Position numbers and translations under genes: made by a program
Notes under the pieces: model-generated
Told to the model about the DNA's origin: nothing
What the model saw: the letters and a program-made list of their open reading frames with translations, nothing else
Database searches by the model: none
Shown: in pieces, positions 15,642 through 33,926 of the stretch
Position numbering within the stretch: position 1 is the first letter of the stretch
How the letters are laid out: each line of letters begins with the position of its first letter
Origin: Candidatus Bipolaricaulota bacterium
GTDB taxonomy: Bacteria; Bipolaricaulota; Bipolaricaulia; UBA7950; UBA9294
Length of the DNA: 37,675 bases
Direction of reading: 5' to 3'
NCBI GenBank assembly: GCA_030606565.1
Contig: JAUWGE010000002.1
Coordinates: 100,107 to 137,781, forward strand

Positions 15642-15738
15642 GAACGTCGTAGACCTGTCTACCATTCCGGCACAGGCAGGTAAGCTGCTGCGCTACGTCA
15701 ATCCTGTAGCGTCGGGCTTTATGCCCGACGTTGGTGGA
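15642..15738. repeat. REP-like hairpin repeat, copy A1
   Basis: The repeat starts GAACGTCGTAGACCTGTCTACC, cut here to its first 20 bases by position 15642-15661, passes through GGCACAGGCAGG, and ends with the hairpin GTCGGGC-TTTAT-GCCCGAC at 15712-15730. A copy of the same layout is at 21845-21990. Its right part (15693-15738) is read on the minus strand as the last codons of the DUF134 gene. It lies between the ABC-F stop and the DUF134 stop, so it may also serve as a two-way terminator, though no T-run is present. Confidence 0.75.
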
Positions 15739-16079
15739 GCCTTCCATCGTCCGCGGCCCATCCCCCGACCGTGCCGCCCCGGCCTACGAATCACGACGTG
15801 CTCCGACTCGTGCACGGCGAGAGCTTTTCCGTGCATCACCGCATCAATTACCTTGCGCCGACCAGAGTAAAGCAAGCGCTGGATCGTCCCTCGCGAGATT
15901 CCCATCTCCTGCGCCGCTTGCTCTTGGTCGTGCCCTTCAAAGTCGCACAAGCGCATCGCTTCCAGTTCATCGAGTGCAACCTTGACGATCTCAGTCTGGG
16001 AAAGAGGGATACCGCTCGGCTTGAACAGGTTGTACCCGAAAAACTCCTGACAGTAACGCGGCTTTTTCTGGCGGCCCAT
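15693..16079 (-). CDS. DUF134 (UPF0251) helix-turn-helix DNA-binding protein
   Basis: A 128-residue predicted transcription regulator. The start MGRQKKPRYCQEFFGYNLFKP and KVALDELEAMRLCDFEGHDQE are hallmarks of DUF134, followed by the helix-turn-helix AAQEMGISRGTIQRLLYSGRRKV (key residues EMGISRGTIQR). DUF134 genes are usually next to NifX-like and ferredoxin-MinD genes, as here. The last 12 residues (TSGIKPDATGLT) are encoded by a REP-like repeat and are probably not native. The ATG at 16079 has GAGGAGG four bases upstream. It is transcribed from a near-consensus promoter divergent from the metal-cluster operon and probably controls that operon and itself. Confidence 0.9.
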   Translation of the reverse strand: MGRQKKPRYCQEFFGYNLFKPSGIPLSQTEIVKVALDELEAMRLCDFEGHDQEQAAQEMGISRGTIQRLLYSGRRKVIDAVMHGKALAVHESEHVVIRRPGRHGRGMGRGRWKAPPTSGIKPDATGLT

Positions 16080-16095
16080 CGTCCTCCTCGCAAGA

Positions 16096-16209
16096 GTGCA
16101 TAAGCTTACTATAGAGGGACATTGGAGCGGTTGTCAAGCGGACGAATAGGGATAAACCTCTCTCTTGGCCTGAACGTCGACTGCTTGACAAGTTTTGTGC
16201 ATATGCTTA
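16096..16209. promoter_or_regulatory. Candidate DUF134 operator pair
   Basis: GTGCATAAGCTTA at 16096-16108 and GTGCATATGCTTA at 16197-16209 are the same 13-base word with one difference. The first lies at the -10 and start point of the DUF134 promoter; the second spans the spacer and the -10 of the operon promoter. Each contains an 8-base palindrome (TAAGCTTA and GCATATGC). Their placement fits repression of both promoters by one protein, most simply the DUF134 product. This is inference from position and similarity. Confidence 0.5.
16108..16137 (-). promoter_or_regulatory. Near-consensus sigma-70 promoter of the DUF134 gene
   Basis: Read on the minus strand, TTGACA (16137-16132) is followed after 18 bases by TATAGT (16113-16108). 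The expected start of transcription is near 16101, about 20 bases before the DUF134 ATG. Confidence 0.75.
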
Positions 16210-16213
16210 TAAT
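16185..16213 (+). promoter_or_regulatory. Consensus sigma-70 promoter of the NifX/MinD operon
   Basis: A perfect TTGACA (16185-16190), a 17-base spacer and a perfect TATAAT (16208-16213). This is the strongest promoter visible in the window. Transcription would start near 16220, followed by an AAGGAGG ribosome site and the ATG at 16250. So perfect a promoter in front of an accessory operon suggests strong expression that is held down by a repressor. Confidence 0.85.
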
Positions 16214-16249
16214 GGCGGCGTTTAAACCTTCAACAAGGAGGGGGTCTAT

Positions 16250-16558
16250 ATGGGAGGATACGGACATCGAAACATGTACTACGCGACCGGGCTTCCTGGC
16301 TGGGTGCGATTCGGTTACTCCCCCGGATGGGGAGGCCTCCCACCGGCGGCACAATACCTCCAGAATACCGGGCAGACAGGGGCGTTCCTCGCTTCGCTTG
16401 GTTACCCGACTTCAGCCCCAGGGGCATGGCCGGTGCCAGGAACGGCACCCCAATCAAAGGAGCAGGAACTTGCGACGCTCAACGCCCAGAAGGAGGCACT
16501 TGAACGACAAATGGAGGCGGTAAAAAAACGCCTGGAAGAGCTGGAAAAGGAGGCATGA
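16250..16558 (+). CDS. Small protein with aromatic/Gly-rich N-terminus and C-terminal coiled coil (DUF5320-like)
   Basis: A 102-residue protein, first gene of the operon, with an AAGGAGG ribosome site. The N-terminal half is rich in Gly, Tyr and Trp (HRNMYYATGLPGWVRFGYSP). The C-terminal 35 residues are a charged heptad coiled coil (EQELATLNAQKEALERQMEA and on to the end). The same kind of coiled coil ends the products at 16904 and 17582. I recognise it as DUF5320-like by architecture and context only. Possible roles are a scaffold or a metal-cluster carrier; no function is established. The stop overlaps an ATG in ATGA, but the next gene probably starts nine bases later. Confidence 0.75.
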   Translation: MGGYGHRNMYYATGLPGWVRFGYSPGWGGLPPAAQYLQNTGQTGAFLASLGYPTSAPGAWPVPGTAPQSKEQELATLNAQKEALERQMEAVKKRLEELEKEA

Positions 16559-16563
16559 TCGCT

Positions 16564-16812
16564 ATGAGAGGACGCGGCGGAGGTTTTGGCGGCAGAGGCT
16601 ACTTCAGAATGGGTTACGGAATGGGGCTTGGTAGAGGAATTGGTTCCTTCGGTCGAGGGATGGGCCTTGGAATGGGACGAGGATATGCAGGCTGGCTGGG
16701 CAACCCCTATGCTCGGGGTTGGCCCGGGTATGGTATGTCCTATGGCTATCCTTATGGGGGGTACGGATCTAACTACCCATACTCCGGCTATGGCATGGGG
16801 TATCCCTACTAA
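16564..16812 (+). CDS. Gly/Tyr/Arg-rich low-complexity small protein
   Basis: An 82-residue protein made almost only of Gly, Tyr, Met, Arg and Pro: MRGRGGGFGGRGYFRMGYGM at the start and GYGMGYPY at the end. It has RGG-like repeats at the N-terminus and YG(S/Y)-like repeats at the C-terminus. There are no cysteines and no membrane segments. ATG 16564 is ten bases after AGGAGG; an upstream ATG at 16555 overlaps the previous stop but is only one base from that ribosome site. Such composition is typical of disordered, RNA-binding or phase-separating segments elsewhere, but that is analogy. I know no function. Confidence 0.7.
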   Translation: MRGRGGGFGGRGYFRMGYGMGLGRGIGSFGRGMGLGMGRGYAGWLGNPYARGWPGYGMSYGYPYGGYGSNYPYSGYGMGYPY

Positions 16813-16903
16813 CGATCAGGACCTTTTAAAATCGCAAGGATGATACCGCGTCAGGCAGGAAGCGCCCCGTATGTAGCGTTTGAAACAAAAAAGGAGATGT
16901 ATT

Positions 16904-17227
16904 ATGCCAAGATTTGATGGAACAGGACCCCGTGGAATGGGGCCGATGACAGGAGGAGGAAGGGGTTTTTGCAGCCCGTGGGGGTTAGGGACAATGTACG
17001 GCCGTGGAGGGGGGATGCCTTATCCTATGGCCACTCCGTACCGGATGCCATATCCCTCCTACGGGGGGATGCCTTATTCTGGAGCACCGGCGTATGCTCC
17101 AGGAGCTGCCCCCTATGCGCCACAGATGAGTGAAGAACAGGAGCTTCAATTCTTGAAGGAAGAAGCACAGAGGGTAAAGGATCAGCTGGCACAGATCAGT
17201 GGCCGGATAAAGGAATTGGAGACTTGA
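16904..17227 (+). CDS. DUF5320-family protein
   Basis: A 107-residue protein with the recognisable DUF5320 start MPRFDGTGPRGMGPMTGGGR, a Pro/Tyr/Gly-rich middle (YPMATPYRMPYPSYGG) and a C-terminal coiled coil (EEQELQFLKEEAQRVKDQLA to the end). One cysteine follows the N-terminal motif. The family is common next to NifX-like and ferredoxin-MinD genes in anaerobes; its function is unknown. ATG 16904 has AAGGAG seven bases upstream. The frame is open to 16880 without a ribosome site. The N-terminal MPRxDGTGP motif is shared with the zinc-ribbon protein at 21499. Confidence 0.82.
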   Translation: MPRFDGTGPRGMGPMTGGGRGFCSPWGLGTMYGRGGGMPYPMATPYRMPYPSYGGMPYSGAPAYAPGAAPYAPQMSEEQELQFLKEEAQRVKDQLAQISGRIKELET

Positions 17228-17269
17228 ACCCAAGAACTGCATAGAACCAAACCGATCCAAACGCTCTTA

Positions 17270-17361
17270 GGAAACCAGGAGGTCAGGAACCCGACAGCTC
17301 TTAACGGCGGATTAGTATCTTGAGCCCAAAGAGTTTTAGATCTCCTGGATTCTTGGTTTCC
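17270..17361. repeat. GGAAACCAGGA inverted-repeat element
   Basis: GGAAACCAGGAGGTCAGGA at 17270 and CTCCTGGATTCTTGGTTTCC ending at 17361 form imperfect terminal inverted repeats about 92 bases apart. The element resembles those at 11750-11816 and 37539-37608 and looks like a miniature, non-coding mobile repeat. It splits the operon between the DUF5320 gene and the first NifX-like gene. The rest of this 354-base gap has only the short open frame at 17444. Confidence 0.65.
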
Positions 17362-17443
17362 TTACAGATTCCAACTCAATGGTTCTGATGTGCCTTCAAG
17401 AGGAGTGCAAAATCTGGGTTGAAAACAAGTAAAGGGGTGGACG

Positions 17444-17563
17444 ATGAAGATCACCATATCAGAAGACGGTCCTAGTTTAGATGCTCAAGGCAGATCATCG
17501 CACAGGGAGATTCCGATACTCCGTCATTTTCCTCACCGCACGGGCGCTCCGCGCTATCGGTAG
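17444..17563 (+). pseudogene. Possible remnant of a NifX-like gene
   Basis: A 39-codon frame beginning MKITISEDGPSLDAQ with a GGGGTGG ribosome site. The first 15 residues look like the start of NifX-like proteins (compare MRVCITSDGQGLDAP at 18179); the rest does not. It may be the stump of a fourth NifX-like paralogue whose remainder was lost, or a short leader. The evidence is limited to the N-terminal resemblance and position. Confidence 0.4.
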
Positions 17564-17581
17564 AGTATAAGGAGGCTTAAA

Positions 17582-18175
17582 GTGAAAATTGCTGTAGCCA
17601 CAACACAGGGTGGATTGGAGGATGTTGTCTCTCAAGTCTTCGGCCGCTGCCCTACTTTCACTCTGGTGGATGTTGAGAACGGGAAGGTCGTCTCCCACGA
17701 GGTAGTTCAAAACCCCTATGTCAGCGCGATGGGTGGGGCCGGGATCCAGGCGGCGCAGCTTGTCATCTCCAAGGGTGCACAGGCGATCCTCGCCGGCGCG
17801 TTCGGCCCGAATGCTTCAAACGTCTTTTCCCAGGGGGGTGTGCAAACGATTCCCGCCCAAGGGACTGTGAAAGAAAAAGTCCTCGAGTTTGCTGCGGGAC
17901 GGCTCGCCCCGGCTGCCGGTCCTACCGCGGCGGCGTTCGCGGGTCGGGGCATGGGGACCGGAGGTGGGATGGGAATGGGACGCGGGATGGGAATGGGACG
18001 CGGGATGGGAATGGGACGTGGCATGGGAATGCCTGGCATGCCCATGTCAACTCCGCCGGCTGCCCCGCCTCCATCGATGGAGGCGATGGCCACCTTGACC
18101 GAACAGCTACGCTCACTTACGCTCAAGCTACAACAGCTAAACGAGCGCATCGATGCACTCGAAAGGAAGGAATAA
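17582..18175 (+). CDS. NifX-like protein with GMGMGR repeats and C-terminal coiled coil
   Basis: A 197-residue protein in three parts. Residues 1-115 are a dinitrogenase iron-molybdenum cofactor domain (NifX/NafY fold): MKIAVATTQGGLEDVVSQVF at the start, FGRCPTFTLVDVENG, ILAGAFGPNASNVF. Next comes a Gly/Met/Arg segment with three exact GMGMGR units. The last 40 residues are a coiled coil (TEQLRSLTLKLQQLNERIDA) like that of the DUF5320-type neighbours. Proteins with this domain bind metal-sulfur clusters, as in NifB/NifX and the Mo-Cu orange protein of Desulfovibrio. The GTG start has AAGGAGG six bases upstream. Fusion of the NifX fold to the coiled coil suggests docking to the same partners. 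Confidence 0.87.
   Translation: MKIAVATTQGGLEDVVSQVFGRCPTFTLVDVENGKVVSHEVVQNPYVSAMGGAGIQAAQLVISKGAQAILAGAFGPNASNVFSQGGVQTIPAQGTVKEKVLEFAAGRLAPAAGPTAAAFAGRGMGTGGGMGMGRGMGMGRGMGMGRGMGMPGMPMSTPPAAPPPSMEAMATLTEQLRSLTLKLQQLNERIDALERKE
17966..18019 (+). repeat. Three 18-base tandem repeats inside the NifX-like gene
   Basis: The unit GGGATGGGAATGGGACGC occurs three times without a gap (17966, 17984, 18002; the last differs only at its final base). A partial fourth copy follows. It codes for GMGMGR units and could vary in number by slippage. Confidence 0.9.
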
Positions 18176-18178
18176 GAA

Positions 18179-18541
18179 ATGAGAGTTTGCATCACTTCGG
18201 ATGGACAGGGACTTGACGCGCCGGTCAATCCAAGCTTCGGGCGAGCACCCTATTTTCTATTTGTCGATCCCGAGACACTCACCACAGAAGGCGTGAAAAA
18301 TACTCCCGGTGCCCATGGTGCCGGCGTGCAAGCGGCCCAGACCGTCGTGTCGAAGGGCGCGAACATTGTGATCACCGGGAACGTTGGACCAAACGCCCAT
18401 CAGGGTCTTAGCACAGCTGGGATCGAGATCTATGTCGGAGCAAAGGGCACGGTTAAGGACGCACTTCAAGACTACCGCGCTGGCCGCCTCACCCGCGCCG
18501 ATGCTCCCACAGCAGGGGGGCATGGAAGGAGGATGATATGA
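18179..18541 (+). CDS. NifX-like metal-cluster-binding protein
   Basis: A 120-residue protein consisting mainly of one NifX/NafY-type domain: MRVCITSDGQGLDAPVNPSF, then FGRAPYFLFVDPE, GVQAAQTVVSKGANIVITG and NVGPNAHQGL. The family binds Fe-Mo, Mo-Cu or other metal-sulfur clusters during their assembly or transfer. It starts only three bases after the previous stop and ends in an ATGA overlap with the next gene, so the three NifX-like proteins are made together. It has a single cysteine near the N-terminus, so any cluster would have to be held non-covalently or by other residues. Confidence 0.9.
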   Translation: MRVCITSDGQGLDAPVNPSFGRAPYFLFVDPETLTTEGVKNTPGAHGAGVQAAQTVVSKGANIVITGNVGPNAHQGLSTAGIEIYVGAKGTVKDALQDYRAGRLTRADAPTAGGHGRRMI

Positions 18542-18912
18542 GCAAAGTCTGCGTACCGACCGCGGGAAGCGGTGGCCTAGACGACCTGGTCGGCGAGCAC
18601 TTCGGCCGCGTCCCAACCTACACGATCTATGACTCCGATACCGGTACGGTAGAGGTGGTCGATAATACCTCTGAGCACATGGGCGGAAGAGGACTTCCAG
18701 GCTCAATCCTAGCCAACCTGGGGATCGACGTTCTTTTGTGCAGCGGCCTCGGCCGTCGGGCGATCGGAATCCTAAACCAAAACGGGATCGAAGTCTGCGC
18801 CGGCGTTTCCGGGACAGCACGCGCGGCGATCGAGGCGTGGAAGGGAGGGAGTCTCTCGAAAGCCTCAGATAAAGACGCCTGCCAGAAACACGCGTTCCGC
18901 GATCGCCATTGA
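18538..18912 (+). CDS. NifX-like metal-cluster-binding protein, second short paralogue
   Basis: A 124-residue NifX/NafY-type protein: MSKVCVPTAGSGGLDDLVGE, HFGRVPTYTIYDSDTG, ILANLGIDVLLCSGLGRRAI. It differs from its neighbours in the GPNA-type loop, which here reads LGRRAIGILNQNGIEV, and it has four cysteines, one of them in the core strand LLCSGLG. It overlaps the previous gene by four bases and the next by one (TGATG). The C-terminal DACQKHAFRDRH is polar with Cys and His and might add metal ligands; that is a guess. Confidence 0.88.
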   Translation: MSKVCVPTAGSGGLDDLVGEHFGRVPTYTIYDSDTGTVEVVDNTSEHMGGRGLPGSILANLGIDVLLCSGLGRRAIGILNQNGIEVCAGVSGTARAAIEAWKGGSLSKASDKDACQKHAFRDRH

Positions 18913-19898
18913 TGCGTATCGCCATCGCCAGCGGAAAGGGCGGAACCGGTAAGACGACCATTGCCGTTAACCTGGCTCTCTCCCTTGTCGAACGAGAATC
19001 GGTCCAGTTCATCGACTGTGATGTCGAGGAGCCAAACGCCCACATTTTTTTAAAACCTCGCATTAAGCACGTACATTCGGTGGGAAAGCTCCTTCCAGAG
19101 GTGGATGAATCCCTGTGCAATCAGTGCGGGGAGTGTGCCAAGGCCTGCGAGTTTAACGCCATCGCCGTCATCGGAAAGAAGGTATTGGTCTATAACGAAC
19201 TCTGTCACGGCTGCGGGTTGTGCAAGATGGTCTGCCCAACCGGGGCGATAAGCGAGGTCCCACACGAACTCGGGGTCGTAGAATCAGGGGAAGCACGCGG
19301 ATTTCCCTTCTCTCGCGGGCTACTCAACATCGGCGAGGCTATGGCGACCCCGCTTGTCCACACATTGAAGGAAGGGCTTGATCCTGACCGTCTGGCGATC
19401 CTCGACGCACCGCCGGGGACCGGGTGTCCAACGATCGCTGCACTGCACGGGGCCGATGTCGCGCTGCTGGTCACCGAGCCGACCCCGTTTGGCCTGCACG
19501 ACCTCAAAGCCGCGGTGGGGGTCGCCCGCTCATTGGGCGTACCGATCGCCGTAGTGATCAATCGCAACGGGATCGGTGATGATCAAATAGAGCGCTACTG
19601 CAAACAGGAGGGGCTACCGATCCACTTAAAGATCTCGTTTGACCGTGAGATCGCCGTGCTTTACTCGGAGGGGACCCCACTCGTCGACGCCCTTCCGGCC
19701 TGGAAGGAGCGGTTCATCCACCTCTACCATGAAATCATCTCGCAGGCGGGCGAAGGCGCTGCCTCCGTAGCGTCGGGCTTCATGCCCGACGATCTGAACA
19801 AACGTCGCACACAAGGTGCGACGCTACACGCTGCCGAGGACGTTCCCGCAGTGGACATCGGGCCGAATGAGGGGCCCCAAAAAGGAGAGGCGGGATGA
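18912..19898 (+). CDS. MinD-superfamily P-loop ATPase with inserted ferredoxin domain, first copy
   Basis: A 328-residue ParA/MinD/NifH-type ATPase. The deviant Walker A is SGKGGTGKTT (7-16), and DCDVEEPNAH follows. A 2x[4Fe-4S] ferredoxin domain is inserted, with cysteines 69/72/75/79 and 98/101/104/108. Switch II is APPGTGCP. Such paired ATPases are part of the orange-protein (ORP) system of Desulfovibrio and are thought to load or move metal clusters. The ATG at 18912 overlaps the previous stop (TGATG). The gene carries an odd tail: residues of about 285-307 (SVASGFMPDDLNKRRTQGAT and three more) are the translation of a REP-like repeat at 19767-19827, so the native protein probably ended near residue 280. 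It overlaps the next gene in ATGA. Confidence 0.92.
   Translation: MRIAIASGKGGTGKTTIAVNLALSLVERESVQFIDCDVEEPNAHIFLKPRIKHVHSVGKLLPEVDESLCNQCGECAKACEFNAIAVIGKKVLVYNELCHGCGLCKMVCPTGAISEVPHELGVVESGEARGFPFSRGLLNIGEAMATPLVHTLKEGLDPDRLAILDAPPGTGCPTIAALHGADVALLVTEPTPFGLHDLKAAVGVARSLGVPIAVVINRNGIGDDQIERYCKQEGLPIHLKISFDREIAVLYSEGTPLVDALPAWKERFIHLYHEIISQAGEGAASVASGFMPDDLNKRRTQGATLHAAEDVPAVDIGPNEGPQKGEAG
19767..19827. repeat. REP-like hairpin repeat, copy A2, inside a coding region
   Basis: The ends GTAGCGTCG (19767-19775) and CGACGCTAC (19819-19827) are perfect inverted repeats. Inside are two hairpins: GTCGGGC-TTCAT-GCCCGAC and GTCGCAC-ACAAG-GTGCGAC. The element is 61 bases long and sits in the last tenth of the first MinD-type gene, in frame. 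Confidence 0.85.
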
Positions 19899-20755
19899 AG
19901 AGCGTTCTCTTCCTTTCGGGAAAAGGGGGGACCGGGAAGACCTCCCTCGCCGGGGCGTTCGCCTTCTTGGCGAAGGAGAAGGTCCTCGCCGACTGCGACG
20001 TCGACGCGGCGAACCTACACCTCTTGCTCGATCCAAAGATCACCTCGGAGGGAAACTTTCAAGGAATCAAACTCGCCGTTAAAGACGATGAGAAGTGCAC
20101 CTCCTGTGGCAAGTGCCGCGAGGTCTGCCGCTTTCAGGCAATCGACGAGAACTTTACCATCGATTCCTATATGTGCGAGGGGTGCGGGGCCTGTGCATAC
20201 GTCTGCCCGGTCGATGCGATCACCCTCCTGCTGGTCGATTGCGGGCGCTGGTACACCGCGCAGAGCAGGCTTGGCCCACTTGCGAGCGCCGAGCTCTATC
20301 CAGGAGAGGAGACCTCAGGGAAGCTCGTCTCTCTGGTCAAGGAGAAGGCGGCCGGACTAGCTAAAGAGACAAAAGTAGAAGCCCTGTTGATCGACGGGGC
20401 CCCTGGGATTGGTTGCCCGGTGATCGCCTCGGTGAGGGGGGTAAGTGCGGTCATCCTCGTCACCGAGCCAAGCCTCTCCGGGTTGCACGACTTAAAACGG
20501 ATCCTCGGGGTGGTCCGTCACTTTGGGATTCCGGCCTACCTCGTCATCAACAAGGCTGACATAAACGAGAAAGTTTCAGAAAAGATCGAGGCGTTCGCCG
20601 CGCAGGAGCAGCTCCCGGTGCTCGGACGGATTCCCCATGACCGAAAAGTAACCGAGATGATGGTCGTTGGAAAAAGCGCCGTCGAGGATGCGGAAAGTCC
20701 TGCCGGAGCGGCGATGAGCGTGGTTTTTGAGCGTTTTACGGAGGTCTTTTTATGA
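19895..20755 (+). CDS. MinD-superfamily P-loop ATPase with inserted ferredoxin domain, second copy
   Basis: A 286-residue paralogue of the preceding gene. The Walker A is SGKGGTGKTS (8-17), followed by DCDVDAANLH. The two ferredoxin motifs have cysteines 68/71/74/78 and 94/97/100/104, and switch II is GAPGIGCPV. LLVDCGRWYTAQSRLGPLAS, after the second motif, is characteristic of this family. It has no repeat-derived tail and ends at TEVFL. Both ends overlap neighbours by ATGA, so the two ATPases are probably made in equal amounts and may form a heterodimer, as proposed for ORP-type pairs. A signalling or transport role cannot be excluded. Confidence 0.93.
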   Translation: MKSVLFLSGKGGTGKTSLAGAFAFLAKEKVLADCDVDAANLHLLLDPKITSEGNFQGIKLAVKDDEKCTSCGKCREVCRFQAIDENFTIDSYMCEGCGACAYVCPVDAITLLLVDCGRWYTAQSRLGPLASAELYPGEETSGKLVSLVKEKAAGLAKETKVEALLIDGAPGIGCPVIASVRGVSAVILVTEPSLSGLHDLKRILGVVRHFGIPAYLVINKADINEKVSEKIEAFAAQEQLPVLGRIPHDRKVTEMMVVGKSAVEDAESPAGAAMSVVFERFTEVFL

Positions 20756-21486
20756 TCATTGATGACCTGTTGGCGGAGGCCAGGCCAAAGCTAGCGGACC
20801 TGGTGATCACCGATGTGCGGATCGGCCTGGGATACACCGCTTTATTGCTTGACGATGGGGGCTGTGGCCTTTCAGGGACGGTGAGCGAGGGTGCGCAGGG
20901 TTGCTGCACCCTTCTAGCTCAGGCGGGGGAGCTGATCGGCAAGCCAGCCTTGGAGGTGGCGGAATACGCGGCCTCGTCTGACCCGGTTTCCTCTTCTGTT
21001 GGACTCGCAACGATTAACGCCGTCCTAAACCGGCAGGGAGAATCAGGACAAAGTCCGCTTGAGCTGCTACCGATCGACAACGCACGGGTGGGAATGGTAG
21101 GCTACTTTGAGCCATTCATTCCGGAACTCCGTCGGCGATCGAGTACGTTGTACATCTTCGAGCGGCGGCCCCTCTCCGAGGAGGTTCTTCCCGATTGGTC
21201 GGCCGAGCGGCTCCTCCCTACCTGCGATGTTGCGATCATCACCTCACTAACGCTCGTCAATGATACTCTCGACCATCTGTTAAAACTCGCGCAGGGTGAG
21301 GTCGCCTTGGTCGGACCGACGACACCGCTGTCGCGGGTCTTCGCAAGCCATGGGGTATCGCATCTTTTTGCCACAGTGGTTACCGATCCGCAGAGGATTA
21401 TGACCATAATCAGCCAGGCCGGGGGACCGCAGCGGTTTAAGGATGCGGTGAGAAAAGTCTATCTGCAACTTAAACAAGATAAATAA
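20752..21486 (+). CDS. DUF364-domain protein (putative heavy-metal chelation)
   Basis: A 244-residue protein of the DUF4213/DUF364 type. The N-terminal half shows DVRIGLGYTALLLDDGGCGL and EVAEYAASSDPVSSSVGLATINAVL. The C-terminal Rossmann-like DUF364 half has NARVGMVGYFEPFIPELRRR, CDVAIITSLTLVNDTLDHLL and GPTTPLSRVF. The fold of a homologue suggested chelation of a metal or metal-bearing cofactor, but no activity is proven to my knowledge. The gene overlaps the second MinD ATPase by ATGA and is thus the last of a coupled set of six genes. Confidence 0.88.
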   Translation: MIIDDLLAEARPKLADLVITDVRIGLGYTALLLDDGGCGLSGTVSEGAQGCCTLLAQAGELIGKPALEVAEYAASSDPVSSSVGLATINAVLNRQGESGQSPLELLPIDNARVGMVGYFEPFIPELRRRSSTLYIFERRPLSEEVLPDWSAERLLPTCDVAIITSLTLVNDTLDHLLKLAQGEVALVGPTTPLSRVFASHGVSHLFATVVTDPQRIMTIISQAGGPQRFKDAVRKVYLQLKQDK

Positions 21487-21498
21487 AAGGAGGTCACT

Positions 21499-21726
21499 AT
21501 GCCACGTGGAGATGGAACAGGCCCAGCGGGAGCTGGTCAAGGAACAGGAATGGGCCAAGGCCGCGGAGGTCAGGGTCGTGGACGAATGGGAGGAAACCGC
21601 GCTGGCGCCGGACCGTCCGGCTACTGCGTTTGCCCAAACTGCGGAGAGAAGATCGCCCACCGCGTTGGAACTCCCTGTAACCAGATGAGTTGCCCCAAGT
21701 GCGGAACGAACCTCATGCGCGCGTGA
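21499..21726 (+). CDS. Small Gly-rich protein with four-cysteine zinc-ribbon/rubredoxin-like domain
   Basis: A 75-residue protein. The N-terminus (MPRGDGTGPAGAGQGTGMGQ) is the DUF5320-type motif followed by a Gly/Arg-rich linker. The C-terminus is a compact metal site: CVCPNCGEKIAHRVGTPCNQ, then MSCPKCGTNLMR, giving two CPxCG knuckles plus two further cysteines. Proteins like this accompany NifX/MinD clusters in anaerobes. The metal (Zn or Fe) cannot be told from sequence. The ribosome site AAAGGAGG is strong, 12 bases after the previous stop. Confidence 0.85.
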   Translation: MPRGDGTGPAGAGQGTGMGQGRGGQGRGRMGGNRAGAGPSGYCVCPNCGEKIAHRVGTPCNQMSCPKCGTNLMRA

Positions 21727-25906: not shown

Positions 25907-26614
25907 GTGGGGCGGATCCTGGTCATCTACGATAATCGGACAACAAGGGAAGATCTTACTCCGGGATGGGGTTTCTCCGCGTTCATCGAGCTTCCCGAGA
26001 GGAGGATTTTGTTTGACACCGGGGCAAATGGAAGGACCCTCCTCACCAATATGGAGCGGCTCAAGCTCGACCCAGCAACCATCGATACGGTCTTCCTCTC
26101 CCACCCTCACGGTGACCACACAGGGGGATTGGAGGGCCTACTTCGAGTTAACCCGCGGTTGACGATCTACCTCGGCCGCTCGTTCTCCTGGGGATTCAAG
26201 AAAGCCCTCGAGCGCTCAGGTACAGAACCTGTCGAAATAACCGGGGCGAAACAACTGTTTGACGGCGTCTATACCACCGGTGAACTGGGGGCCGTGCTCA
26301 AGGAGCAAAGCCTCATCATCGAGACGAAAAAGGGCCTTTTTGTCACTACAGGCTGCGCTCACCCCGGGATTGTGAGGATAGCAAAGGCCGCGGCGGAGCA
26401 GTTGAATAAAAAGATCGACCTTCTCCTCGGTGGTTTCCACTTAGGTGGCACCCGTCAAGCTAAGATTTATTCGATTATTGACTCTCTACAGAAGCTTGGA
26501 GTAAGCAGAGTCGGGCCTTGCCACTGCACCGGCGATGGGGCAATCGAGCTTTTCAAAAGGGCCTACAAGGAGGATTTTATCGAGGTGGGAGTCGGTTCAA
26601 GGATCGAGTTTTAA
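25907..26614 (+). CDS. Metallo-beta-lactamase-fold protein (COG1237-like), first copy
   Basis: A 235-residue MBL-fold hydrolase. The dinuclear metal site is visible as SHPHGDHTGG, TGCAHPG and the closing GGFHL; the start MGRILVIYDNRTTREDLTPG, with GWGFSAFIE, is typical of COG1237. Some family members have been assigned to the dihydropterin-ribofuranosylaminobenzene phosphate synthase step of methanopterin synthesis, but annotation of this family is loose. The start is GTG 25907, two bases after the previous stop. It is paralogous to the gene at 27219, and the two flank an unknown secreted protein. Confidence 0.9.
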   Translation: MGRILVIYDNRTTREDLTPGWGFSAFIELPERRILFDTGANGRTLLTNMERLKLDPATIDTVFLSHPHGDHTGGLEGLLRVNPRLTIYLGRSFSWGFKKALERSGTEPVEITGAKQLFDGVYTTGELGAVLKEQSLIIETKKGLFVTTGCAHPGIVRIAKAAAEQLNKKIDLLLGGFHLGGTRQAKIYSIIDSLQKLGVSRVGPCHCTGDGAIELFKRAYKEDFIEVGVGSRIEF

Positions 26615-26626
26615 AGGAGGTGTAAG

Positions 26627-27217
26627 ATGAGTCGGCATTGTTTGGCTTTGGTTATCTTGCTAGGGGGACTCCTTACCTTCAGCCTGATTGCGTTCACTGC
26701 TAGGGAGCGCGTCATCACCGTCACGGTGGAGGAAGTGGCCCTGTGCTACTGCGAGGAGGTTTTATGGGACGAGGAGGGGTTTACCCACGAGTACAAGGAG
26801 TATACCTCGGATAAGCGAGGGTACGTGACGGATCTGGCGGCGGCAACTGCGACCGGCTGGGAGAGCTACGGAGTGACGGTCGGGGAGTGGCAGCTTTCCT
26901 TCCGGGAAAACTACAACCTGGAAACTGACAAGGCTACCTATAGCACCCTTCTTGAGTGTCTTGTAAAAGGAGCGGTGAGTAAGAGGCAGACAAACTATAC
27001 CGCCCGCTTCCAGTGGCTGCTCACCCGCTTGGGCCTTGACTTCATCGACGACCGGTTTACCCCTTCAAAGACTGGGCTCTCCTGGAGGGGGGAACTGAAC
27101 GGTATCCCCACTACCATTATGGTAAAGGCGCCCACACAGGAGGCTGACTACGCGGCCTGGCATCATCCCAATGGCCACTGCCACGCCCACGTGTGGTGGA
27201 CTAAAAAGGGAGGATAG
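26627..27217 (+). CDS. Secreted or membrane-anchored protein of unknown function
   Basis: I do not recognise this 196-residue protein. It starts with a short charged stretch and a hydrophobic segment (LALVILLGGLLTFSLIAFTA, about 6-25), which would be a signal peptide or anchor. The rest is hydrophilic, with two neighbouring cysteines in LCYCEEVLW and an aromatic, His-rich end (WHHPNGHCHAHVWW) that could bind a metal. The ribosome site AAAGGAGG is strong. It lies between two paralogous MBL-fold genes with gaps of 12 bases and 1 base, so it is surely co-transcribed with them. Confidence 0.8.
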   Translation: MSRHCLALVILLGGLLTFSLIAFTARERVITVTVEEVALCYCEEVLWDEEGFTHEYKEYTSDKRGYVTDLAAATATGWESYGVTVGEWQLSFRENYNLETDKATYSTLLECLVKGAVSKRQTNYTARFQWLLTRLGLDFIDDRFTPSKTGLSWRGELNGIPTTIMVKAPTQEADYAAWHHPNGHCHAHVWWTKKGG

Positions 27218-27218
27218 C

Positions 27219-27929
27219 ATGGTAAAAGACCACATTCTGATCCTATACGACAACCGAACCGACAGGAGCGACCTTCAACCCGGCTGGGGATTCTCCGCTT
27301 TGATCGAGCTCAAAGGACGTAGAGTCTTGTTCGACACGGGAGCGGACAAGCTCGTGCTGGAACACAACGCCGAAGCGCTCGGCATCGACCTCGCCTCGAC
27401 CGACACCCTTGTCCTCTCCCATGAGCACTGTGACCATATCGGGGCGATCACCTCCGCCCTCCACCGAAACCTGGAGGTTTTCTACCCCGCGTCGTTCTCC
27501 ACCCTGTTCCAGGGGGAGGTATCCGAGGAGGAGGGATGGCACGCTCATCCTGTCTCCCAACCGGTCGAGATTCTTCCCAGGTTCCACTCAACCGGCGAAC
27601 TCGGGAAAAAGATCGTGGAACAGTCACTGATCGTCGAGGGAGATGAAGGGCCGGTACTCATCACCGGCTGCGCCCATCCTGGAATCGTCGAGATCGCCCG
27701 TGTGGCAACGGATATCGTTGGAAAACCACTCCGGCTCGTCCTCGGTGGGTTCCACCTCTATGGGAAGAAGGCAGCCGAGGTGGAGGAGATCGCTGCCGAT
27801 CTCAAGCGGATTGGGGTGAAGCAGATCGCTCCGTGTCACTGTACCGGTGAGCGAGCGATGGAATTCCTAGAAAGGACCTTTGGCAAGAGATACCTTGTGA
27901 TCAAAGTGGAAAGTGAGGTTAAGATTTGA
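27219..27929 (+). CDS. Metallo-beta-lactamase-fold protein (COG1237-like), second copy
   Basis: A 236-residue paralogue of the gene at 25907. It shares YDNRTDRSDLQPGWGFSALI, the metal motif SHEHCDHIGA, TGCAHPGIVEIAR, LVLGGFHL and APCHCTGERAM. It differs in the lid region between about residues 95 and 125. ATG 27219 lies one base after the previous stop and has AGGGAGG nearby; the frame is open upstream but overlaps the secreted-protein gene. Two non-identical copies in one operon suggest related but different substrates, or a heterodimer. Confidence 0.9.
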   Translation: MVKDHILILYDNRTDRSDLQPGWGFSALIELKGRRVLFDTGADKLVLEHNAEALGIDLASTDTLVLSHEHCDHIGAITSALHRNLEVFYPASFSTLFQGEVSEEEGWHAHPVSQPVEILPRFHSTGELGKKIVEQSLIVEGDEGPVLITGCAHPGIVEIARVATDIVGKPLRLVLGGFHLYGKKAAEVEEIAADLKRIGVKQIAPCHCTGERAMEFLERTFGKRYLVIKVESEVKI

Positions 27930-33252: not shown

Positions 33253-33502
33253 GGTTCTAAGGACTGGATGTGCGATATGTGTGAGTTCATGCTCTTCAAA
33301 TGGGACCTATGGTGCCAGTGCAGCTAACCTCCCCCCGTGCCTGTAGCTTCCAGAAAGGCTTTCATAGTTCAAGCGGAAGATTTCAAGGCAAAATCCCGGG
33401 GGTCAAGTCTTGCAATGCAACATCGAATGGGGCTTTGAGACTCTATTACACCTTACGGGACGAGTTTTAAACTTTGAGGGGTCTCGGTACAGAGAAGGCT
33501 AG

Positions 33503-33576
33503 TACGCCTGGAGGGACTTGAACCCCCAACCCCCGGTTCCGAAGACCGATGCTCTATCCAGTTGAGCTACAGGCGC
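33503..33576 (-). tRNA. tRNA-Arg (anticodon TCG)
   Basis: The minus strand folds as a cloverleaf: acceptor GCGCCTG/CAGGCGT, D-stem GCTC/GAGC, anticodon loop CTTCGGA (TCG), T-arm GGGGG-TTCAAGT-CCCTC. CCA is not encoded. It is the last of five tandem tRNA genes. Confidence 0.95.
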
Positions 33577-33597
33577 ATATTACAGAGGTTAAAGTGG

Positions 33598-33672
33598 GAG
33601 GAGCGACGGGACTCGAACCCGCGACCCCTGGGACCACAACCCAGTGCGCTAACCGACTGCGCCACGCTCCCC
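33598..33672 (-). tRNA. tRNA-His (anticodon GTG)
   Basis: The anticodon loop is TTGTGGT (GTG). The extra 5' G at 33672 opposes C73, as expected for histidine tRNA. D-stem GCGC/GCGC and T-loop TTCGAGT are normal, and a CCA follows at 33597-33595. Confidence 0.95.
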
Positions 33673-33688
33673 ATAATGATCAAGCTCC

Positions 33689-33761
33689 TACGCCCGGGAG
33701 GATTCGAACCTCCGGCCGACGGCTTAGAAGGCCGTTGCTCTGTCCACTGAGCTACGGGCGC
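33689..33761 (-). tRNA. tRNA-Arg (anticodon TCT)
   Basis: Acceptor GCGCCCG/CGGGCGT, anticodon stem ACGGC/GCCGT with loop CTTCTAA (TCT), T-loop TTCGAAT. It reads AGA/AGG codons. Confidence 0.95.
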
Positions 33762-33772
33762 ATCTTCACCAG

Positions 33773-33843
33773 AGCGGAAGACGGGGATCGAACCCGCATT
33801 ACTGGCTTGGAAGGCCAGTGCTCTACCATTGAGCTACTCCCGC
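33773..33843 (-). tRNA. tRNA-Gly (anticodon TCC)
   Basis: Acceptor GCGGGAG/CTTCCGC (with one G-T pair), anticodon stem CTGGC/GCCAG with loop CTTCCAA (TCC), T-loop TTCGATC, discriminator T as usual for glycine. Confidence 0.95.
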
Positions 33844-33851
33844 ACCACGTA

Positions 33852-33926
33852 TCGGAGAGGCCGGATTCGAACCGGCGACCTCAGCGTCCCGAACGCTGCG
33901 CGCTGACCAAGCTGCGCCACTCTCCG
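33852..33926 (-). tRNA. tRNA-Pro (anticodon CGG)
   Basis: Acceptor CGGAGAG/CTCTCCG, anticodon stem CAGCG/CGCTG with loop TTCGGGA (CGG), T-loop TTCGAAT, discriminator A. It is the first of the cluster, 12 bases after the HtrA stop, so the protease transcript may run into the tRNAs. Confidence 0.95.

Follow-up and report, generated by a model that had tools for sequence, protein, structure and literature searches.

An ORP-like NifX-MinD gene block of Candidatus Bipolaricaulota with a predicted DUF134 operator and a candidate role in iron-sulfur handling

The gene block and its layout

NifX-MinD gene clusters are widespread in strict anaerobes; to our knowledge, neither their job nor their regulation is established outside Desulfovibrio, and we know of no function for the DUF134 family. 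One such cluster lies in the stretch of DNA analysed here (the window, 37,675 nucleotides, contig positions 100107-137781), taken from a 1.81 Mb draft genome of a Candidatus Bipolaricaulota bacterium that is 91% complete. The block comprises eleven genes. DUF134 is divergent, on the minus strand; the other ten, all on the plus strand, are DUF5320a, a Gly/Tyr-rich protein, DUF5320b, NifX1, NifX2, NifX3, MinD-A, MinD-B, DUF364 and a six-Cys protein (Table 1). It is considered here as an operon of the orange-protein (ORP) type, probably under a dedicated DUF134 regulator that acts at a palindromic box in its promoter. Gene content, neighbourhood, gene fusions, the operator with its association to cluster and DUF134, protein folds and tail composition were computed. 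Among public records, Candidatus Bipolaricaulota/Acetothermia metagenome-assembled genomes (loci L001 and L002) come nearest, with 96% identity in MinD-B.

An earlier sequence-only reading had named DUF134, DUF5320, three NifX-like proteins, two MinD ATPases with double ferredoxin motifs and DUF364 in the block, with Mrp nearby, and Pfam recovered all of them in place. Its four-Cys protein contains six cysteines. The block had also been described as joined by 4-base overlaps, which holds for five junctions: overlaps of about 4 bases were found at DUF5320a/Gly-rich protein (16555), NifX2/NifX3 (18538), MinD-A/MinD-B (19895) and MinD-B/DUF364 (20752), and at NifX3/MinD-A (18909) only when a TTG start is taken. 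No overlap exists at NifX1/NifX2 or at DUF364/Cys protein, and DUF134, being on the opposite strand, overlaps nothing. The 39-amino-acid open reading frame (ORF) is probably the decayed remnant of a fourth NifX gene, judging from its N-terminal likeness. An upstream RNA switch was ruled out, as an Rfam scan of the window yielded only five tRNAs and no match in the 355-base gap before NifX1.

Table 1. Features of the block and its surroundings, in window positions
Feature	Positions	Strand	Evidence or remark
DUF134 (UPF0251), sigma-70-region-4-like helix-turn-helix, 128 aa	15693..16079	-	PF02001 1.9e-20; Sigma70_r4_2 8e-8
Predicted DUF134 promoter: -35 TTGACA 16137-16132, 18-base spacer, -10 TATAGT 16113-16108	16108..16137	-	read by hand
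Operon promoter: -35 TTGACA at 16185, 17-base spacer, -10 TATAAT at 16208	16185..16213	+	sigma-70 consensus; kept in relatives
Predicted DUF134 operator TTTTGTGCATATGCTTATAA, variant of TTATGAGCATATGCTCATAA	16193..16212		overlaps promoter spacer and -10
DUF5320a, 102 aa, coiled-coil-like C-terminal segment	16250..16558	+	PF17253 6.7e-6
Gly/aromatic/Arg-rich protein, 85 aa	16555..16812	+	no Pfam family; orthologue in L001
DUF5320b, 107 aa from MPRFDGTGPRGMGPMTGGGRGFC, Gly-rich, coiled-coil end	16904..17227	+	PF17253 1.6e-14
39-aa ORF, NifX-N-terminus-like (MKITISEDGPSLDAQG...)	17444..17563	+	same reading frame and stop in L001
NifX1, NifX domain, tail and helix	17582..18175	+	PF02579 8.6e-19; DUF5320 3.7e-8
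NifX2, orange-protein-like, 120 aa	18179..18541	+	PF02579 1.3e-22
NifX3, distinct-clade NifX	18538..18912	+	PF02579 6.9e-20
MinD-A, Orp3/Orp4-like ATPase with deviant Walker A and two inserted 4Fe-4S motifs	18909..19898	+	CbiA/ParA and two Fer4
MinD-B, deviant Walker A ATPase, two inserted 4Fe-4S motifs	19895..20755	+	CbiA/ParA and two Fer4
DUF364/DUF4213 protein	20752..21486	+	PF04016 8e-38; PF13938 5e-21; PDB 3l5o 1.1e-13
Small Gly-rich six-Cys protein, DUF5320-type start motif MPRGDGTGP	21499..21726	+	sequence motif and composition
Mrp/NBP35 Fe-S carrier, stand-alone, 277 aa	23617..24450	+	PF10609 5.3e-92

The palindromic box and its link to DUF134

The box in the operon promoter is a conserved 20-bp palindrome, found in its full form TTATGAGCATATGCTCATAA in other phyla. 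Its core TGTGCATATGNNTATAAT occurs at a single site in the source genome when up to two mismatches are allowed. At up to one mismatch, a site was present in 34 of 100 Bipolaricaulota genomes, while the reversed-pattern control gave 0. Twenty of the 26 Bipolaricaulota sites that were fetched stand at the start of the cluster; the six off the cluster (L084, L089, L098, L099, L100, L101) are probably due to chance. DUF134 was found in 30 of the 34 genomes with the box and in 25 of the 66 others (Fisher 8.6e-7, relatedness uncorrected), and the four box genomes without DUF134 are those whose site lies away from the cluster (L084, L089, L098, L101).

Outside the phylum, 12 sites were found in 10 of 21 cluster-bearing genomes, ten of them directly upstream of DUF134, NifX, DUF5320, MinD or DUF89 genes; the remaining two lie beside a Mrp-NifX pair (L109) and at an unrelated place (L110). 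A further sample of 399 Bacillota-type genomes, the phylum of a Clostridia metagenome-assembled genome (G100), was taken irrespective of the cluster and gave 17 sites in 15 genomes at up to two mismatches, with 0 in the reversed control. Among 13 newly fetched loci of this type, the box stood upstream of the cluster in 8, adjacent to it in 1 and elsewhere in 4. A general genomic repeat was ruled out by the count of about one site per genome and by few or no sites in the reversed controls. No published DUF134 operator or description of the box was found in the open-access literature, subscription papers and regulon databases being outside the scope of the search.

Across several phyla the sites stand mostly in front of the cluster and often next to DUF134. 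Together with the co-occurrence of box and DUF134, this makes DUF134 very likely the reader of the box, and probably a dedicated regulator. Since the box overlaps the promoter, repression of the operon by DUF134 is suggested. An apparently undescribed DNA switch seems to control the cluster gene set in several phyla.

Two further box-like sites were noted. A weak second core, GTGCATAAGC, lies at 16096-16105, shortly downstream of the -10 predicted for DUF134, so that autoregulation is possible. In one fetched locus (L130:309-328), a box-like site stands about 110 bases from an ORF resembling a sulfide:quinone oxidoreductase-type flavoprotein, either a possible clue to a sulfide signal or a chance occurrence.

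Spread of the cluster, NifX proteins and ATPases

The spread of the cluster was followed in 80 loci chosen by similarity to MinD-B, which cover many bacterial phyla, Methanohalophilus and another archaeon and include many short contigs. MinD is present in these loci by selection, the neighbour genes are not; locus profiles were built iteratively from seeds of the window, so the MBL, radical SAM, ABC-F and P-loop labels are loose. Two intact MinD/ferredoxin ORFs were found in 69 of the 80 loci and NifX ORFs in 73, of which 18 have at least three; DUF5320-type proteins occur in 47, the Cys protein in 29 and DUF134 in 23. A conserved neighbourhood, whose absence would have refuted the sequence-only reading by its own terms, was thus present in relatives, and the order DUF134(-)/DUF5320/NifX/NifX/MinD/MinD was found again in most Bipolaricaulota loci. 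Such recurrence marks the block as a local, family form of a gene cluster that is widespread. The view that three NifX proteins are unusual was dropped on these counts, and the extra NifX and low-complexity proteins, which the sequence-only reading took as special scaffolds, are weak as a novelty.

Gene fusions in other genomes tie the same components together. NifX was found fused with DUF134 in 4 cases, with DUF5320 in 10, with the Cys protein in 2 (L038, L049) and with Mrp in 9 (the MrpORP form), and the Cys protein with DUF134 in 2 (L043, L061). Both kinds of DUF134 fusion occur in other phyla, DUF134 with a fused NifX domain being found in Desulfobacterota. DUF5320 was confined to NifX-bearing genomes (13 of 13), NifX being present in 16 of 30 related genomes (p = 4.7e-6, no phylogeny correction).

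Apart from the three NifX proteins, no PF02579 protein was found in the genome; the three fall into separate clades in a tree of 148 domains. Their closest sequences in the PDB are MTH1175 for NifX1 (1.5e-21), the D. gigas orange protein 2wfb for NifX2 (1.7e-20) and TM1290 for NifX3 (6.1e-14). NifX3 forms a clade with Methanohalophilus (16 rows, Shimodaira-Hasegawa-like approximate likelihood ratio test (SH-aLRT) 99) with a conserved SEHxGGxG motif. The Methanohalophilus NifX3 and MinD-B (L012, L013, L021, L027) are close to the Bipolaricaulota versions, which suggests, from sequence similarity, gene transfer between bacteria and archaea.

NifX1 was modelled as a NifX domain (residues 1-109), a disordered (GMGRGMG)n segment (121-163) and a C-terminal helix (166-196), the predicted local distance difference test score (pLDDT) being about 95 over the domain and below 50 at residues 121-163. 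The tail, which matches DUF5320 in Pfam (3.7e-8), has an isoelectric point (pI) of 10.7 and contains 20% Gly, 10% Lys/Arg, many Met and 1% aromatic residues; the tailed architecture was seen again in Aerophobetes, Armatimonadota-type and other loci. It recalls IssA of Pyrococcus furiosus, a thioferrate store for iron and sulfide in which a NifX domain is joined to a cationic, Gly-rich tail of pI 10.7 (PMC5524996); MTH1175 belongs to the published IssA clade (PMC5524996). By its published description, IssA shares with NifX1 the NifX domain (IPR003731) and, after it, an unstructured tail that is cationic, rich in Gly and of the same pI, and NifX1 resembles IssA to this extent. Unlike that of IssA, the NifX1 tail is Met-rich, nearly without aromatics, and ends in a helix, whereas the aromatic/Gly/Arg composition is found in the separate 85-amino-acid protein (36% Gly, 22% aromatic, 9% Arg, pI 10.0). 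Tail function may, by this analogy, be divided here among separate proteins. The earlier guess at storage thereby gains for NifX1, and for NifX1 alone. IssX, an uncharacterised clade, is named beside IssA as a comparison.

The MinD-B model (pLDDT 91) matched MinD, NifH and ApbC in Foldseek. Its Walker A motif (KGGTGKT), the eight Cys of the ferredoxin motifs and one more Cys, C174 (GIGCP), are invariant in 26 homologues, and MinD-A has the same conserved set. The Cys of the GIGCP loop recalls the switch II Cys of NifH, and this likeness suggests an additional metal site at a dimer interface. MinD-A also has a C-terminal extension, common to L001 and L002 and missing in L003, L005 and L007, because one copy of a palindromic repeat, GTAGCGTCGGGCTTNATGCCCGACG, falls in its 3' end (19767-19791); another copy (15706-15730) sits in the 3' end of DUF134, and the genome holds nine at up to three mismatches.

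Elsewhere in the window, the five tRNA genes are clustered at 33502-33926 on the minus strand, where an overlapping 185-amino-acid ORF on the plus strand at 33549 is probably spurious. Within 25907-27929, a 196-amino-acid protein, signal-like at its N-terminus and unmatched in Pfam, lies between two MBL-fold paralogues.

Proposed function and its alternatives

The block is best read as a DUF134-regulated operon of the ORP type for handling metal-sulfur material, most likely iron-sulfur, through carriers and a store; we give this reading an even chance of being right. More broadly, the block probably serves to build, carry and store iron-sulfur material. The identity of the metal, storage, repression, the signal and the direction of transfer are what we infer beyond the computed results. 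In the proposed mechanism, DUF134 would bind the promoter-overlapping palindrome and keep the operon off until iron or sulfur status changes. With ATP and their ferredoxin clusters, MinD-A and MinD-B would load, reduce, release or move iron-sulfur material, as modelled on data for the ORP complex (PMC6345978). NifX2 and NifX3 would serve as iron-sulfur carriers, NifX1 with the Gly/aromatic-rich and DUF5320 proteins would package the excess as IssA packages thioferrate, and Mrp would hand clusters to client proteins.

Several points weigh against this interpretation. DUF134 is present without a detectable box in some genomes, and the genome comparisons carry no phylogeny correction. The grouping of NifX1 with MTH1175 is weakly supported (SH-aLRT 83 over 121 columns, with P. 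furiosus IssA outside the tree), the best fold match of the NifX1 model is ORP and not MTH1175, and its tail has 1% aromatics versus 14 of 70 residues in the IssA tail. A ferritin is also encoded in the genome. For the source organism, metal binding, regulation and storage are drawn from sequence and analogy.

A bolder form of the iron-sulfur reading, rated at a low probability, is a split IssA that would form a bacterial thioferrate-type body. NifX1 would nucleate it, the Gly/aromatic and DUF5320 proteins would act as tails in trans, and the MinD/ferredoxin ATPases would load or mobilise it; DUF134 would sense the iron-sulfur load (in Desulfobacterota through its fused NifX) and act on the TTATGAGCATATGCTCATAA box.

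A true orange-protein system is an unlikely alternative, in which NifX2, perhaps with NifX1 and NifX3, would bind a heterometal cluster (Mo-Cu or another thiomolybdate). The ATPases would act on this complex, possibly for cell-pole positioning as proposed for Desulfovibrio. The composition of the Desulfovibrio ORP complex was taken from PMC6345978. The sequence-only reading called the block ORP-like, and this likeness, part of the favoured reading too, stands at the core, for two MinD-like ATPases with two 4Fe-4S motifs each (the domain make-up of Orp3/Orp4) and for the orange-protein-like NifX2, whose best solved relative is ORP itself, as well as for Mrp nearby; the small six-Cys protein is a candidate counterpart of Orp5, a small [2Fe-2S] protein, set beside it by description only. 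The NifX1 model also superposes on ORP with a template modelling score of 0.89 by target length. The likeness fails for the MrpORP fusion and for sigma-54 control. Mrp here is without a NifX domain and stands in a separate gene run downstream (DUF89, YggS, Mrp, YfcE, radical SAM and MBL-fold genes); it scored 302 bits against the MrpORP model, under the cut-off of 450, and aligned to positions 2-254 of the 365 in that model. Where Desulfovibrio has sigma-54, DVU2106 and IHF, a sigma-70 promoter with the DUF134 box is found here, and Pfam detected no sigma-54 activator domain among the scanned proteins of the block and its neighbourhood. The block has three NifX proteins versus one, with DUF5320, Gly-rich proteins and DUF364 added, and no ORP counterpart is described for IssA-type tails. 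Most of what experiments show on metals in the D. vulgaris complex concerns Fe-S, and the Orp3-Orp4-Orp8 complex and MrpORP were found by experiment to bind or transfer Fe-S (PMC6345978).

Equally doubtful is the maturation of one metalloenzyme, such as a hydrogenase or CO dehydrogenase, in which the NifX proteins would carry a cofactor precursor as NifX/NafY do for FeMo-co. The domain and fold are the same as in those carriers, structures of NafY and NifX (1p90, 9ian) are among the matches of the NifX1 model, MinD-B resembles NifH and ApbC, and Pfam labels the DUF364 family 'putative heavy-metal chelation'. The neighbour genes differ from those of the FeMo-cofactor carriers, and a nitrogenase cofactor role was ruled out, since nitrogenase NifDK/EN (PF00148) had no match in the 91% complete genome; one SufBD protein is encoded. 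Among the families tracked, no one client enzyme gene recurs beside the cluster, whose spread over many phyla with differing metabolisms argues against a single client.

A metal or sulfide stress response, in which NifX and Gly-rich proteins would sequester excess metal sulfide instead of supplying clusters, is improbable: IssA is induced by sulfur under iron sufficiency (PMC5524996), cationic low-complexity proteins suit mineral binding and stress operons typically have a dedicated regulator nearby, but the double-ferredoxin ATPases and nearby Mrp point to assembly and transfer, beyond sequestration.

In conclusion, the ORP-like core and the conserved block are of an already known kind, whereas the DUF134 box, the fusions of NifX with DUF134, DUF5320, the Cys protein and Mrp, and the IssA-like tail of NifX1 are new here. 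Of most value to specialists is the box above all, followed by the putative storage-type NifX1 and the presumed split tails. If NifX1 and its partners do store an iron-sulfur polymer, thioferrate storage would reach beyond Thermococcales into bacteria. The predicted DUF134 operator offers a direct entry to the cluster, and its inducing signal would show what the cluster handles.

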